Below are positions 57,335 to 61,720 of a DNA stretch of 64,000 nt, piece after piece. The stretch is from NCBI RefSeq assembly GCF_021228795.1, contig NZ_CP089309.1:5577501-5641500 (forward strand), written 5' to 3'. The translations under genes and the position numbers were made by a program. This DNA comes from Thiocapsa bogorovii (GTDB taxonomy: Bacteria > Pseudomonadota > Gammaproteobacteria > Chromatiales > Chromatiaceae). The notes below the pieces were generated by a model. The model was not told the origin of the DNA, searched no databases, and saw only the letters and a program-made list of their open reading frames with translations. Numbering within the stretch: position 1 is the first letter of the stretch; each line of letters opens with the position of its first letter.

Positions 57335-60300
57335 CTAGATCCGGCCCGCCTTGTCCAGCAGAGTGAACAACTCGTCCACCAGTGCCGTGACCCGGTCCAG
57401 GTCCTCGGTCTCGGCGAAGATCGCGAAGGTCACCCGCTTGCGTAGTTCGCGCAAGGCGTTCTCGCTTCGCTTCCAGTTGGAGCATTCCCCAAAGGCCAGC
57501 CGAATCTTGCGGCTGACTGCCTCGGGGTTGCCGACCCCGGCATCCAACAGGGTCCGGTAGACGAAATAGGTCAGGCCATCGAAGGACTTCTCGGCCTGCT
57601 CCTGCTTTCTGGTCTCGTTCGACTCGACCTCCCGCAGCAGCGCCGCCAGCGCCTCCGCCGTGTCGAGCTGGCGGCTCTCGAAGGCATCCTGCACCGCCCG
57701 CGCACGCTCGGCCATGGCGATGAGATAGGGGTCCTCGCTCTCCTCCTCGGCCTTGCGCTCGATGCCCTTGACCAGGTTGATCACCTTGGTGGCGTCGCCG
57801 CCCTGGCGCTGCTTGATCAGCTCGATGGTCTCGGCGTTGATCTCGACCAGCCCGTCGACAGGTCGCACCTCGTAGAGGCCGACCTGCTCCTGCACCAGTT
57901 GGTTGGTCTTACGCTGGAACTCACGGTCCACCTGCACGCGCTTGCTGTACGCCTTGCGGACGACCGCGTAGATGGCGGACAGAGTGCCGTAGTCGTCCAT
58001 GAAGGGCCGCAGGAAGGCATCCGGCGAGATGATCTCGTAGAGCATCTCGATCTCCTTGTACTCCTTGAAGAACGCCTTGCGCCGTTCGGGGTCGCGGAAA
58101 TGCTCGATGAGGGTGTCCACGTCCTTGTCGTTGAAGTTGCGCTCGATCAGGCCGAGGTAGGCCGGGGCCTTGGACTCCATCTTGTTTTTGAACAGGACCT
58201 TCAGCAACTTCAGGTCCTTGACGATGGCGTTGATCTCGTCGCTGTCGAAGGCCAGCGCCTGCTCCAACTTGTCGAAGATGCCGACGAAATCCAAGACGAA
58301 GCCGTGCGGCTTCACCATCTCCTGCGCCTCGTTCTCATAGGGGCGGTTCACGCGGGCGATGGCCTGCAGCAGCGTGTGGTCCCGCATCGGCTTGTCGAGA
58401 TACATGGCGTAGAGCACCGGCGCATCGAAGCCAGTGAGCAGCTTCTCGGTGACGATGAGGATCTTGGGCTGCTGATCGAGCTTGCCGAAGCTCTTGCGGA
58501 TCTGCCGCTCCCGCTTCGGGTCGAGATGGAATTCCTTGAGCAGCTTCGAGTCGTTGTTGCTGCCGGTGTAGACGACCTCGGAATAGGCGGGCGGCAGGAA
58601 CTGATCCAGCGAGTGCTTGTAGTGCGCGCAGGCCTCGCGGTCCACGCCCACGAGGAACGCCTTGTAGCCGAGCGGCTCGACATTCTCGCGGTAGTGGCTG
58701 GCGACGAACTGCGCCACTTTCTGTATCCGCTCCTTGCCCTTGAGGAAGTTCTTCAGATTCACCGCCCGATCGAGGATCTTGTTCAGCTCCTCGATGTCCG
58801 CCACCCCCTCGGCCTCGGCCAGCGACAGGAAATCCTTGTCCAGCGTCTCGTGCGGGACCAGCATCTCGTTCGGGGCGAGCTGGTAGTAGAGCGGCAGTGT
58901 CGTGCCGTCCTCAATGCTGTCCGCGATTGAATACTTATGCAGATACCCTTGGTCGTCCTCGCAGCCAAAGGTCTTGAAGGTGCCCTTGCCGTAGACGGTC
59001 TTGTCCACCGGGGTGCCGGTGAAGCCGATGAAGGTCGCGTTCGGCAGGCCGGCCATCAAAAAGTTACCGAGATCGCCGCCGGTGGTGCGGTGTGCCTCGT
59101 CGATGAGCACATAGATGTTCGAGCCCCTGTTGAGGTTCGCCGGCATGTCGCGGAACTTGTGGATCATCGTCACGATGATGCCCCGATAGTCGTCGCGCAA
59201 TAGCTGGTTGAGCCGGGCGATGCTGCTGGCGTGCTCCAGGTTGCCCAAGCCCAGCGCCGCGAGGTTCTTGAGCATCTGATCTTCCAGCTCGTTGCGGTCG
59301 ATCATCAGCAGCACGGTGGGCTTGTCCGCCTCGGGCGCGCGGAACAGCCGCTCCGCCGCCTTGATCATCGTGAAGGTCTTGCCGCTGCCCTGGGTATGCC
59401 AGATCAGGCCACGGGTGCGGATGGGATCAAGGGCGCGACCGACCGTCGCGTCCACCGCGCCGGTCTGGTGCTGCCGCAGGATGTACTTGTTCAGCTCCTC
59501 GTCCTTCTCGGCAAAGACGATGTAGTCCTTCAGGAAACCGAGCACCCGCGGGATGGCGCAGAAGGTTTTGACTCGGGCTTCGAGACGCCCCGGAACGGAG
59601 GGGGGACATTCCTGTCCCCCTCTCTCACCAATGGGTTCGGGGTTGGAAAACCCCGACTCCTGTCCCCGCTCCCATAGAAAGTAGTGCCCGTCCCGCAACG
59701 CCGCCTTCACCGGATTCTCTCGTATATACTCTGCCACCTTGAAAAAATGCCGCTCATTCCGGATCAGTCGATCCCAATACTCATCCTGCCAAAGCGCTCC
59801 GGACTTCCCCATCCGCTTGTTGATCTCCCGTGCCGTGAATCCTTTCCAGGATTTCATGATATCGGCCAGCTTATTTGCCCCAAGCGGTCGAAACAGCACA
59901 TGGACGTGGTTCGGCATCACCACGAACGACGCCAGCTCATACCGGTCTCCGTCGAAGTGCCGGAGTGCATCGGCGACGACTTCCGCATTCGCCGGGGCCT
60001 TCAGTACGCACGACCCGCTGCCCTGGTCCAGCCAAGCATCGATCTGCTGCGAAAAGCGCTGGTGATACTCGGCTTCAGTCTGCTCTTGCCAAGGCTCGGG
60101 ATGCTGTTTGAGCCAGACGTCCCGTTCGTCCTTCCACTGATCCAGCTTCGCCTTCGGTAGCGCGTCTCCCAGCCGCCAGGTCACGAATATCCACGCGTTG
60201 CCTTGCTGCCAGTGAGGGAGCCGGTTTCTGGTAACGTCGATCTCGGCTTCGGTGTCGAAAAAGGAGCGGGGGTTTTCCAACCCCCTTTTCTCTCCAAGCG

Positions 60301-60997
60301 GGGGACAGGAATGTCCCCACTCCACTTTCCAAGCAAAGATGTTCCGCCGCACCGTGTTCCAGCTCACCCCGTAGCAAAACCCGATGGCATCGGTGGCGGT
60401 GAAGAGCTGCTGCGACACGAACAGCTCGGGCGTCTCGCGGTGGTAACGGCGGATCTGGTCCACCCCCAGCGCAATCGCCTCGTCCTTGCTGGCGTTCTTG
60501 CACTCGATCACCAGCACCGGGATGCCGTTGATGAGAAAGACGATGTCTTGCCGCGTCCCGTAGTGACCGTTGTGAAAGGCCCACTCCTCGGTGACCTCGT
60601 AGACGTTGTTCTCGGGGTGCTCGTAATCGATCAGGATCAGGTCGTGCTCGCGCTTCTCCGCGTGATCGAAGAACTTGCCCCGGTTGCGCAGGTGCTCGAC
60701 GAATTCTCGGTTGCCGTAGATGTCGGTGTGGAGATGGCGGAACTGCCCGAGCAAGGCGCCCTCGGCTTCGGCGTAACGCGGGTTGAATTCCCGCACCTTG
60801 GCGTCGAGCAGGTCGTCGAAGAAGAGCGACAAAGGAGCGGGTGTTTTCCAACCCCTGGTCTTGGATTCAAAGGGGGCAGGAATGCCCCCTCTCCTTTGCT
60901 CGGCCTCCTCGCGGGGCACAAAGGTCCACCCGATGGCCTGGGCGTATTCGAGAATCCGGGCTTGGACGGTTTTGTGCTCGCTGGGTGTGGGCATCAC
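57335..60997 (-). CDS. hsdR: Type I restriction enzyme R subunit with an in-frame RAYT domain
   Basis: 1220 residues (GTG 60997 or ATG 60994), about 220 longer than related HsdR. The nuclease domain (about 90-200) has DIVFLINGIPVLVIECKNAS (D...E-x-K). The helicase part has Walker A HTQGSGKTFTM (about 534-544), VLIDEAHRTTGG, FIGFTGTPVDKT, and LTGFDAPVLYAMYLDKPMRD. Between them (about residues 226-470) lies a REP-associated tyrosine transposase domain. A smaller in-frame REP insertion replaces residues about 37-57. HsdR is the translocating, cleaving subunit of type I restriction. The frame is open throughout; activity is uncertain. Confidence 0.92.
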   Translation of the reverse strand: MMPTPSEHKTVQARILEYAQAIGWTFVPREEAEQRRGGIPAPFESKTRGWKTPAPLSLFFDDLLDAKVREFNPRYAEAEGALLGQFRHLHTDIYGNREFVEHLRNRGKFFDHAEKREHDLILIDYEHPENNVYEVTEEWAFHNGHYGTRQDIVFLINGIPVLVIECKNASKDEAIALGVDQIRRYHRETPELFVSQQLFTATDAIGFCYGVSWNTVRRNIFAWKVEWGHSCPPLGEKRGLENPRSFFDTEAEIDVTRNRLPHWQQGNAWIFVTWRLGDALPKAKLDQWKDERDVWLKQHPEPWQEQTEAEYHQRFSQQIDAWLDQGSGSCVLKAPANAEVVADALRHFDGDRYELASFVVMPNHVHVLFRPLGANKLADIMKSWKGFTAREINKRMGKSGALWQDEYWDRLIRNERHFFKVAEYIRENPVKAALRDGHYFLWERGQESGFSNPEPIGERGGQECPPSVPGRLEARVKTFCAIPRVLGFLKDYIVFAEKDEELNKYILRQHQTGAVDATVGRALDPIRTRGLIWHTQGSGKTFTMIKAAERLFRAPEADKPTVLLMIDRNELEDQMLKNLAALGLGNLEHASSIARLNQLLRDDYRGIIVTMIHKFRDMPANLNRGSNIYVLIDEAHRTTGGDLGNFLMAGLPNATFIGFTGTPVDKTVYGKGTFKTFGCEDDQGYLHKYSIADSIEDGTTLPLYYQLAPNEMLVPHETLDKDFLSLAEAEGVADIEELNKILDRAVNLKNFLKGKERIQKVAQFVASHYRENVEPLGYKAFLVGVDREACAHYKHSLDQFLPPAYSEVVYTGSNNDSKLLKEFHLDPKRERQIRKSFGKLDQQPKILIVTEKLLTGFDAPVLYAMYLDKPMRDHTLLQAIARVNRPYENEAQEMVKPHGFVLDFVGIFDKLEQALAFDSDEINAIVKDLKLLKVLFKNKMESKAPAYLGLIERNFNDKDVDTLIEHFRDPERRKAFFKEYKEIEMLYEIISPDAFLRPFMDDYGTLSAIYAVVRKAYSKRVQVDREFQRKTNQLVQEQVGLYEVRPVDGLVEINAETIELIKQRQGGDATKVINLVKGIERKAEEESEDPYLIAMAERARAVQDAFESRQLDTAEALAALLREVESNETRKQEQAEKSFDGLTYFVYRTLLDAGVGNPEAVSRKIRLAFGECSNWKRSENALRELRKRVTFAIFAETEDLDRVTALVDELFTLLDKAGRI
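59588..60322 (-). mobile_element. RAYT transposase domain and REP sequences inserted in frame in hsdR
   Basis: HsdR residues about 226-470. The domain reads RNRLPHWQQGNAWIFVTWRL, the HUH-type motif SFVVMPNHVHVLFRPLG (about 358-373), then MKSWKGFTAREINKR and the catalytic-tyrosine region ALWQDEYWDRLIRNERHFFK (Tyr 407) and EYIRENPVKAAL. These are the core motifs of Y1/RAYT transposases. It is bounded by inverted copies of a REP-type sequence (59595-59672 and 60261-60323). Normal HsdR sequence resumes on both sides in the same frame. Confidence 0.9.
59595..59672. repeat. REP-type double palindrome, right boundary of the RAYT insert
   Basis: Contains GGGGGACATTCCTGTCCCCC and GGGGTTGGAAAACCCC, two short palindromes. 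It is in inverted orientation relative to the copy at 60261-60323. Confidence 0.85.
60261..60323. repeat. REP-type double palindrome, left boundary of the RAYT insert
   Basis: AAGGAGCGGGGGTTTTCCAA, CCCCC, then GGGGGACAGGAATGTCCCC. The stems are GGGGGTTTTCCAACCCCC-type and GGGACA..TGTCCC. Matches the copies at 59595-59672 (inverted) and 60831-60898 (direct). Confidence 0.85.
60831..60898. repeat. REP-type double palindrome inserted in frame near the hsdR start
   Basis: AAAGGAGCGGGTGTTTTCCA ... GGGGGCAGGAATGCCCCC. Same unit as at 60261-60323. It encodes HsdR residues about 36-58 (GGIPAPFESKTRGWKTPAP), which have no counterpart in usual HsdR proteins. Confidence 0.85.
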
Positions 60998-61419
60998 TAG
61001 TCTCGCTTCGTTCCGCCCTTTACCCGAACATCAATCTCGGCGGGATCCCCAAGTTCTGGAACAGCCTGTTCCAGAAACTCAGAAACCGTCAACCGGCTGA
61101 GAAACTCCCGCGCCTGGGTCAAGAACGTGCTACTTGAATATTCGCTGTAGAGATGACGCATTCGCCAGAGATTGTCCGCCGAGAAACCAGTGGTCGCCGG
61201 GAACTCGAGTTTCAAATCCCGCGACAGGGACTCAACCACCGATTTCCCCCAGCCCAGTTCCCGTTGTTTCTCGACGATTCCCTGTCCGATATCCCAGTAC
61301 AGAAGAATCATCTCACGATTCACCGACCGGCTCGCCGACAGCCGTGCCGAACGAATCCTCGATTTAACTTCGCCCAGCCAAGCGATGTAGTCAGGGGATG
61401 TTGCTACTTCATCAGGCAT
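60997..61419 (-). CDS. DUF1016/YhcG-type N-terminal domain protein (short)
   Basis: 140 residues from ATG 61419. DYIAWLGEVKSRIRSARLSA, SRSVNREMILLYWDIGQGIV, EKQRELGWGKSVVESLSRDL and FSADNLWRMRHLYSEY are the DUF1016 N-terminal domain. The PDDEXK nuclease half of full YhcG proteins (about 340 residues) is absent. Its stop overlaps the GTG of hsdR, so it is part of the restriction operon. May be a truncated gene or an accessory. Confidence 0.75.
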   Translation of the reverse strand: MPDEVATSPDYIAWLGEVKSRIRSARLSASRSVNREMILLYWDIGQGIVEKQRELGWGKSVVESLSRDLKLEFPATTGFSADNLWRMRHLYSEYSSSTFLTQAREFLSRLTVSEFLEQAVPELGDPAEIDVRVKGGTKRD

Positions 61420-61435
61420 GTCAAATCCCCCATTC

Positions 61436-61720
61436 CTATGCGCCTCCCCCGACCGAGTAAGTGCTCGACACACCCCTGGGGGAGGGAGATATCGCAGCGA
61501 GTGCAGGCGGTACGGGTTGAGTCGGCGTGAGCTGCCCCAGTGCCACAACGGGTTCACCCATCGCACTCGGCCGGCACCCCTGCACTTCGCGCCAGACCTC
61601 CTCCGGCACCAAGACAGCCGGGAAGTCCGTCAACAAGTCTAGGCACCATAGTTCGTCCAGATGGATGAGGGGTCCCGCATCACTGACGACCAGTGGCGGT
61701 TGATGGTCAATCTCGTCCAC
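61436..61720 (-). pseudogene. PIN-like toxin (DUF3368 type), C-terminally truncated
   Basis: Starts MDEIDHQPPLVVSDAGPLIH, LDELWCLDLLTDFPAVLVPE EVWREVQ. The SDAGPLIHL segment carries the first acidic residue of PIN nucleases. After about residue 45 the sequence loses the family pattern and ends at 94 residues, whereas functional members have about 150-170. Overlaps the antitoxin gene by 14 bases. Confidence 0.65.

Follow-up and report, generated by a model that had tools for sequence, protein, structure and literature searches.

How does a complete transposase come to lie within the open reading frame of a restriction enzyme, and what keeps it there? The question is raised by a 64,000-nucleotide stretch of the Thiocapsa bogorovii genome (contig NZ_CP089309.1, positions 5,577,501 to 5,641,500; hereafter the window), in which hsdR, the gene for the type I restriction subunit R, contains a REP-associated tyrosine transposase (RAYT) together with repetitive extragenic palindromic (REP) sequences. 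A first-pass annotation had offered two readings: a very recent insertion, open by chance, or a domesticated fusion in which a single-strand nuclease rides on a translocating restriction motor. We consider it probable instead that the insert is a selfish, mobile unit of RAYT and REPs, which tolerant host proteins carry as one of their internal domains.

The insertion in hsdR is in frame and its borders can be placed by comparison. As first annotated, a single 3663-bp open frame of 1220 codons runs uninterrupted across the insert (Table 1), and the order of the Pfam and NCBIfam matches confirms that the RAYT domain lies in frame between the nuclease and helicase domains. HSDR_N covers residues 6–208 and Y1_Tnp residues 352–427 (2.5e-9), and the helicase families begin at residue 505, with the SWI2/SNF2, ResIII and hsdR families all C-terminal to the stretch matched by Y1_Tnp and REP_Tyr_transpos. 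The REP-associated tyrosine transposase family NF047646 gave 81.8 bits with the excised insert (cut-off 80) and 78.5 bits, slightly under that cut-off, with the whole protein; PF01797 exceeds its cut-off in the window HsdR. All five close HsdR orthologs aligned, which come from other genera of the same family and show 93–97% identity over the helicase query, are without the 245-residue insert, their ...NIFNWK continuing directly into DAEVGKLEAKVK. Because these orthologs fix the junctions, the borders first given as 59588–60322 are replaced by those of Table 1, while the original length of about 245 residues (735 bp) stands. The inverted REP-type palindromes said to bound the insert were also recovered, with arms of 27 nt at 93% identity and 23 nt at 91% identity, and a GTGG, resembling the GT[AG]G foot of a REP stem, was sighted by eye next to the upstream border.

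The RAYT within HsdR retains the residues expected of the family. When aligned to PDB 4ER8, a RAYT bound to a REP hairpin and the best PDB match to the modelled core, the window protein has both the HUH motif MPNHVH and the catalytic tyrosine. The first-pass annotation had placed this tyrosine in LWQDEYWDRL; the YIYINP stretch of 4ER8 points to the Y of EYIRENP instead, and the LWQDEYWDRL tyrosine occurs in 13 of 40 embedded relatives. HUH is present in 40 of 40 embedded copies and HUH with the tyrosine in 39 of 40; both are intact in 43 of 44 stand-alone RAYT rows. In an AlphaFold model of HsdR residues 1–780, the RAYT core blocks have a predicted local distance difference test (pLDDT) score of 85–97, and the HsdR part, with few alignment rows, mostly 30–55 (mean 52.8 over the model). 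As a prediction, the model is reliable for the RAYT part only.

Table 1. Features of hsdR and its in-frame inserts, in window coordinates.
Feature	Position	Strand	Basis
hsdR, type I restriction subunit R, 1220 aa	57335..60997	-	Open reading frame; HSDR_N, SWI2_SNF2, hsdR, REase_I
In-frame REP-RAYT-REP cassette, 245 codons	59591..60325	-	Alignment with five insert-free orthologs
RAYT core (HUH single-strand nuclease domain)	59672..60232	-	NF047646 81.8 bits; pLDDT 85-97; PDB 4ER8
REP palindromes, upstream side of cassette	60262..60323	.	Arms 60297-60323 and 60262-60284
REP palindromes, downstream side of cassette	59597..59661	.	Arms 59597-59623 and 59639-59661
HUH motif MPNHVH, containing first ATG of insert	59900..59917	-	
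EYIRENP, bearing catalytic Tyr	59711..59731	-	Aligned to YIYINP of 4ER8; Y in 39/40 embedded relatives
Second in-frame insert, REP-only, HsdR N-terminal loop	60827..60895 (outer ends by eye)	.	Repeat D2/I3, pattern matches, orthologs differ
Short divergent flank adjoining cassette	59549..59590	-	First 30 nt differ from L060 at 13 positions, against 5% for the whole right part

Related RAYTs were found inside the frames of many other genes. We searched one genome each for 84,980 species with a profile (A1) of seven RAYTs, two of them embedded; at least 513 stretches encode relatives, and the best 80 of these (L085–L164; L numbers denote loci and G numbers genomes) were read further. A copy was classed as embedded if its stop-to-stop frame extended at least 150 codons upstream and at least 60 codons downstream of the matched core. 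Embedding in a longer host frame was found for 38 of the best 80, 34 by this strict rule and four at contig ends (L086, L100, L130 and L142); among the other 42 loci, L113 and L137 have internal stops and were excluded from later counts. NCBIfam scans covered 33 of the 38 embedded loci (L104, L112, L130, L138 and L142 were left out) and detected a host family besides the RAYT in every one. The hosts included HsdR (six), LeuS and ValS (three each), CarB, adenosine deaminase and DUF1156 (two each), and, once each, NspC, XseA, PriA, a SNF2 helicase, a radical SAM protein and glucuronate isomerase. Nine hosts are type IIG/PglX-like methyltransferases, seven of them weak matches at 1e-5 to 1e-7 (L097 1.5e-5). 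The phyla with embedded copies include Pseudomonadota, Verrucomicrobiota, Chlorobiota, Methylomirabilota, Chloroflexota, Planctomycetota, Bacteroidota and Ignavibacteriota, and three embedded frames exceed 1400 codons in loci of 32–36% GC. The first-pass annotation had proposed a search for the same domain order elsewhere; HsdR with a related RAYT at the same site as in the window occurs in L085–L087, from three named phyla.

Some of the hosts are essential enzymes for which the interrupted gene is the only match to pass the profile cut-off. The LeuS with the insert sums to 964–979 bits over its pieces in the genomes of L088, L092 and L096, and no other LeuS match above the cut-off of 548 was found in any of the three. 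For ValS, a single match lies over the cut-off in two of three genomes, the third having the gene split between contigs. The LeuS insert of L092 maps between residues 368 and 376 of the Thermus LeuRS 1h3n.

When 113 genomes were drawn evenly from the class of G180, 29 of them yielded a total of 70 matches at E <= 1e-30. For 14 of the 70 the surrounding frame is 450 aa or longer, and 12 of these 14 are from genomes other than G180. Five of the 14 long frames were scanned, yielding ClpB (1286.8 bits) and ValS (1060 bits) over the cut-off and DinG/YoaA twice; the fifth, L198 (565 aa), showed no host family at 1e-6. In L195 and L201 the RAYT lies in DinG/YoaA at a near-identical profile position, 402–404 of NF053712. 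DinG was matched in six of eight genomes from the family of G268, and frame length suggests that it is interrupted in G268 only. Among 56 genomes of relatives of the window's genome, seven frames of more than 350 aa from outside that genome were read, none of them clearly a two-sided fusion by eye. As a separate observation, a RAYT-like frame of another group (L056, G006:C249) continues, as judged by eye, into thrombospondin-type-3-like repeats.

We compared the start codons of embedded and stand-alone copies. Of 40 embedded copies (the 38 census loci, the window copy and a pglX copy described below), 8 have an in-frame ATG in the 25 codons that precede the RAYT core, compared with 29 of 40 stand-alone copies (Fisher p 4.5e-6). 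The window insert has no stop and its earliest ATG falls inside the HUH motif, so that it apparently has neither the start nor the stop of a gene of its own; judging from the sequence, synthesis within the HsdR chain is the simplest way in which the window RAYT would be produced.

The ratio of nonsynonymous to synonymous substitution rates (dN/dS, NG86 method), which the first-pass annotation had suggested comparing between insert and flanking HsdR, indicates constraint on both. For the window copy, the RAYT ratio is 0.085 against L085, 0.083 against L086 and 0.125 against L087; that of the HsdR C part is 0.21 against L085 and 0.24 against L087, and 0.10–0.13 against L060, L061, L063 and L064. 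Simple co-descent of RAYT and HsdR is not supported: because the synonymous rate (dS) of the RAYT exceeds that of HsdR between the window and L085, the two did not merely diverge together.

The relationships among the RAYTs suggest that some may have spread between equivalent sites. In a quick tree with SH-aLRT (approximate likelihood ratio test) supports, the RAYTs at the HsdR site form one set (4/4, support 99) consisting of the window copy and L085–L087, from three phyla. Other clusters with the same host are two ADA copies (98), two PglX copies (97), DUF1156 (94) and CarB (86), and a C-terminal HsdR pair clusters weakly (61). At least 18 switches between the embedded and stand-alone states are required on the tree, five of them forced by starred branches. 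In three of nine composite pairs compared (L134/L142, L134/L141 and L105/L161), the similarity of the two RAYTs clearly exceeds that of the two hosts; for L134/L142 the RAYT dS is 0.38 versus 1.82 for the host, and the left junction is identical in place. A single-origin homing for all hosts is not supported, as the ValS, LeuS and type IIG hosts require several origins.

The sequence flanking the insert provides additional information. Between the window hsdR and L060 there are 13 mismatches in the 30 nt right of the insert, compared with 5% for the right part overall, and no other of 741 windows matched this number; the same holds for L061, L062 and L064, with one other window for L063. For LeuS in the family of G180, the best 30 of 73 matching genomes were read: the site is occupied by a RAYT in five and free of one in 21, and four could not be parsed. 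A natural LeuS relative without the insert is L226. The LeuS of G327 (L234) is RAYT-free and carries at the site a REP-coded scar, GGTPELPEASSAPGTAI, that resembles the downstream end of the composite L233 and is probably the product of an in-frame loss of the cassette. The G354 LeuS differs from that of its sister G180 at 31 positions in the first 90 nt right of the insert, whereas windows that start 90 nt or more downstream never show over 16 differences; in two control pairs the stretch right of the insert is not the most divergent. The divergent stretch of G354 is nearest to L239, L234, L250 and L233, that is, to three RAYT carriers and the scar. Taken together, the window hsdR and the G354 leuS show signs of recombination beside the insert, which would be compatible with homing.

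REP units are not confined to the cassette. The first-pass annotation saw the cassette REPs and missed a further in-frame insert in the same hsdR, which consists of REP sequence only and where the five orthologs have other sequence (Table 1). In hsdM of the same operon, located outside the window (L047:9155-10963), three tandem in-frame 87-bp REP units begin immediately after the DPCCGSGG motif, each consisting, by eye, of a REP pair and some hsdM sequence. In L085 and L192 this HsdM loop contains other REP-like sequence, whereas the compared copies L189, L190, L191 and L193 have none there. When two REP patterns were searched with up to 2 mismatches, pattern 1 matched the genome nine times, every time at the hsd locus, and pattern 2 matched three times at hsdR and five times scattered elsewhere, the latter with 2 mismatches each; at this threshold, dispersal of cognate REPs through the window's genome was not found. 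The same genome has another RAYT of the same group in frame in pglX (L015, G000:C1:1223000-1230500, minus strand, 893-aa frame). PADLOC profiles fit the N and C parts of this PglX, and from the matched ranges its methyltransferase core is apparently gone; because of this the copy may be a remnant. Also in the hsd operon, a short DUF1016_N frame (60997-61566) adjoins hsdR, and a longer frame (L047:8103-9158) resembles it by eye only.

Our favored model is that of a REP-RAYT cassette that lives in coding sequence, its REP ends being read through as peptide linkers. Translation of the RAYT would occur within the host polypeptide, of which it forms an inner domain, because embedded copies usually lack a nearby ATG and a stop and have open REP ends. 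It is modelled to fold as a separate domain within a loop tolerated by the host, and the host enzyme presumably keeps working despite the insert, a point most compelling for the sole-copy LeuRS. With HUH and tyrosine retained, the RAYT could still be able to cut REP DNA. An in-frame seat in a useful gene may shield the element, because the host gene tolerates only its in-frame removal. New genes would be reached by single-strand transposition together with the REPs, as is known for the family, and a few cases suggest that some alleles may gain the cassette by recombination involving short flanks, in the manner of homing elements. Three parts of the model are inferred: that the cassettes are adapted to coding sequence, that the RAYT is active while fused to its host, and that homing takes place. 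In its fullest form, the model holds that these are autonomous coding transposons, RAYT cassettes without start or stop of their own that are adapted to be expressed only inside conserved host proteins and that, as inteins do, spread from allele to allele at fixed sites, though without being spliced out. Many bacterial enzymes, including sole-copy tRNA synthetases, would then carry an active single-strand nuclease; we give this form even odds.

A number of observations weigh against the model. The 38 of 80 is not a rate, because the loci are the best matches to a profile holding two embedded copies among seven; the even draw gave 14 of 70 instead. Most records (not those of Chloroflexales bacterium ZM16-3, L097, and Pontiellaceae bacterium B12227, L128, which are not labelled so) are metagenome bins, in which a misbinned contig could imitate spread across phyla and, completeness being unstated, a second LeuS could be missing. 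The conservation of HUH is biased, HUH being part of one of the two search patterns (the tyrosine is in neither), and the HsdR part of the AlphaFold model is poor. The dN/dS values rely on high dS and include time before insertion, and the RAYT dS between the window and L085 (1.09) is above the HsdR dS (0.36, 0.63). The Fisher test takes related copies as independent and disregards GTG and TTG starts, which some embedded copies have; in the window insert GTG occurs at codons 1 and 48 and TTG at codon 16. Neither the ValS nor the LeuS nor the type IIG copies form one clade each. The RAYT is less alike than the host in L102/L110, L107/L159 and L088/L092 (CarB, ValS and LeuS), and three pairs are similar; for these, separate insertions into tolerated loops explain the pattern no worse than homing does. 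Left of the window insert the divergence is weaker (5 of 15 nt, with 4 of 163 windows equally high), and the G354 RAYT is nearest to that of sister G180, not to those of the LeuS genes that its flank resembles. Finally, with pattern 1 the window REP family was located nowhere but at the hsd locus, so there is no sign of its recent spread.

Some of these points favor an alternative that is possible, if on balance doubtful: RAYT cassettes may insert anywhere, with only in-frame cases in tolerant loops remaining in useful genes, and without any specialization for coding sequence. The same-site insertions in ValS and LeuS that do not form one clade, the REP-like in-frame insertions in the same HsdM loop of other genomes, and the turnover hinted at by the LeuS scar would all be expected of such passive survivors. 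Against this, an ATG of their own is rare in embedded copies (8/40 versus 29/40), the catalytic residues are retained, some same-site RAYTs cluster across phyla, and the RAYT of L134/L142 is younger than both its hosts.

That the RAYT has been domesticated, nicking single strands for HsdR during motor translocation, we regard as unlikely. The four HsdR proteins (window and L085–L087) share the insertion site, intact catalytic residues and low dN/dS, and the hosts are often defense or DNA enzymes. The fusion reading of the first pass holds in so far as the frame exists, recurs and is under constraint; its proposed function, a nuclease carried along by the restriction motor, is not supported, the hosts being too varied. 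The same RAYT group occurs in LeuRS, ValRS, ClpB, CarB, NspC and adenosine deaminase, and HsdR orthologs at 93–97% identity manage without the insert. An HsdR-specific function is not supported in view of this variety; because the group is found in LeuRS, ValRS, ClpB, CarB, DinG, XseA and PriA, the common factor would be a tolerant host site.

We consider it very improbable that a recent insertion broke hsdR and is open by chance in GC-rich DNA, or that the locus is an assembly chimera. Chance open frames are common in GC-rich DNA, and the second RAYT of the genome sits in a pglX seemingly without its methyltransferase core. Nevertheless, L085–L087 share the arrangement, the C part of the window hsdR is constrained (dN/dS 0.10–0.13), frames of more than 1400 aa occur at 32–36% GC, and the window's genome is one contig. 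A chance open frame was rejected on the strength of the host profiles, the low-GC cases and the insert-free orthologs. The very young insertion of the first-pass annotation likewise gives way to the same-site cassettes in three phyla, the low dN/dS and the residues kept in 39 of 40 copies. Least credible of all is removal of the insert from the transcript as an intron or from the protein as an intein, which its location in sole-copy essential genes recalls, since the REP linkers vary between copies, Rfam introns matched neither the window stretch nor any of 14 loci, and Pfam/NCBIfam scans of the composites found no intein family and no Hint splicing domain (the match of L103 to a helicase family termed intein-prone is to helicase sequence).

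The cassettes can be compared with several known systems. Inteins and homing elements lie in frame in conserved, essential genes, recur at the same sites and spread with their flanks. The RAYT cassettes resemble them in being in frame, in having essential hosts and recurrent sites, and in some signs of spread with flanks; they differ in that no splicing domain was found, the insert is apparently kept, and an HUH nuclease replaces the homing endonuclease. With the RAYT/TnpA-REP system (REPtron) they share the HUH-Y1 domain, the matches to NF047646 and 4ER8, and the inverted REP flanks, but RAYTs have been described as genes of their own, whereas here the whole REPtron is in frame within host genes. 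RAYT genes flanked by two inverted REPs are described as a transposon-like unit in PMC2817692. According to the accessible part of PMC3733652, which cites Rickettsia palindromic elements (RPEs), palindromic elements occur in frame in host genes including those for tRNA synthetases and repair proteins, the inserts being mostly 20–30 and at most 82 amino acids, with no transposase named there. Like intragenic REPs and RPEs, the palindromes in hsdR and hsdM are in frame within host genes; unlike those short inserts, the main insert encodes a mobility enzyme, the RAYT, of its own. In subclass 2.4 the RAYT genes contain in-frame REPs (PMC6006769), the REP thus lying within the RAYT gene, whereas here the RAYT and REPs lie within another gene. 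Searches of the open literature, including passages of PMC6006769, PMC2817692, PMC3733652 and PMC8266576, brought up no description of an entire RAYT inserted in frame into a host protein. In-frame inserts of REP only are thus already known, and whole in-frame RAYT cassettes appear to be new, possibly a class of their own.

These results carry a warning for annotation, since such proteins resemble gene fusions or errors; an earlier survey set long RAYT proteins aside as such (PMC6006769). The composite proteins also constitute a natural set of large in-frame domain insertions (LeuRS, ValRS, ClpB, CarB and others) useful for protein engineering, and they make the persistence of RAYTs testable. 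If the model is true, proteins that function, essential ones among them, can harbor a transposase over time with no splicing to remove it, and the opinion that a REPtron is not mobile as a unit would need revision.

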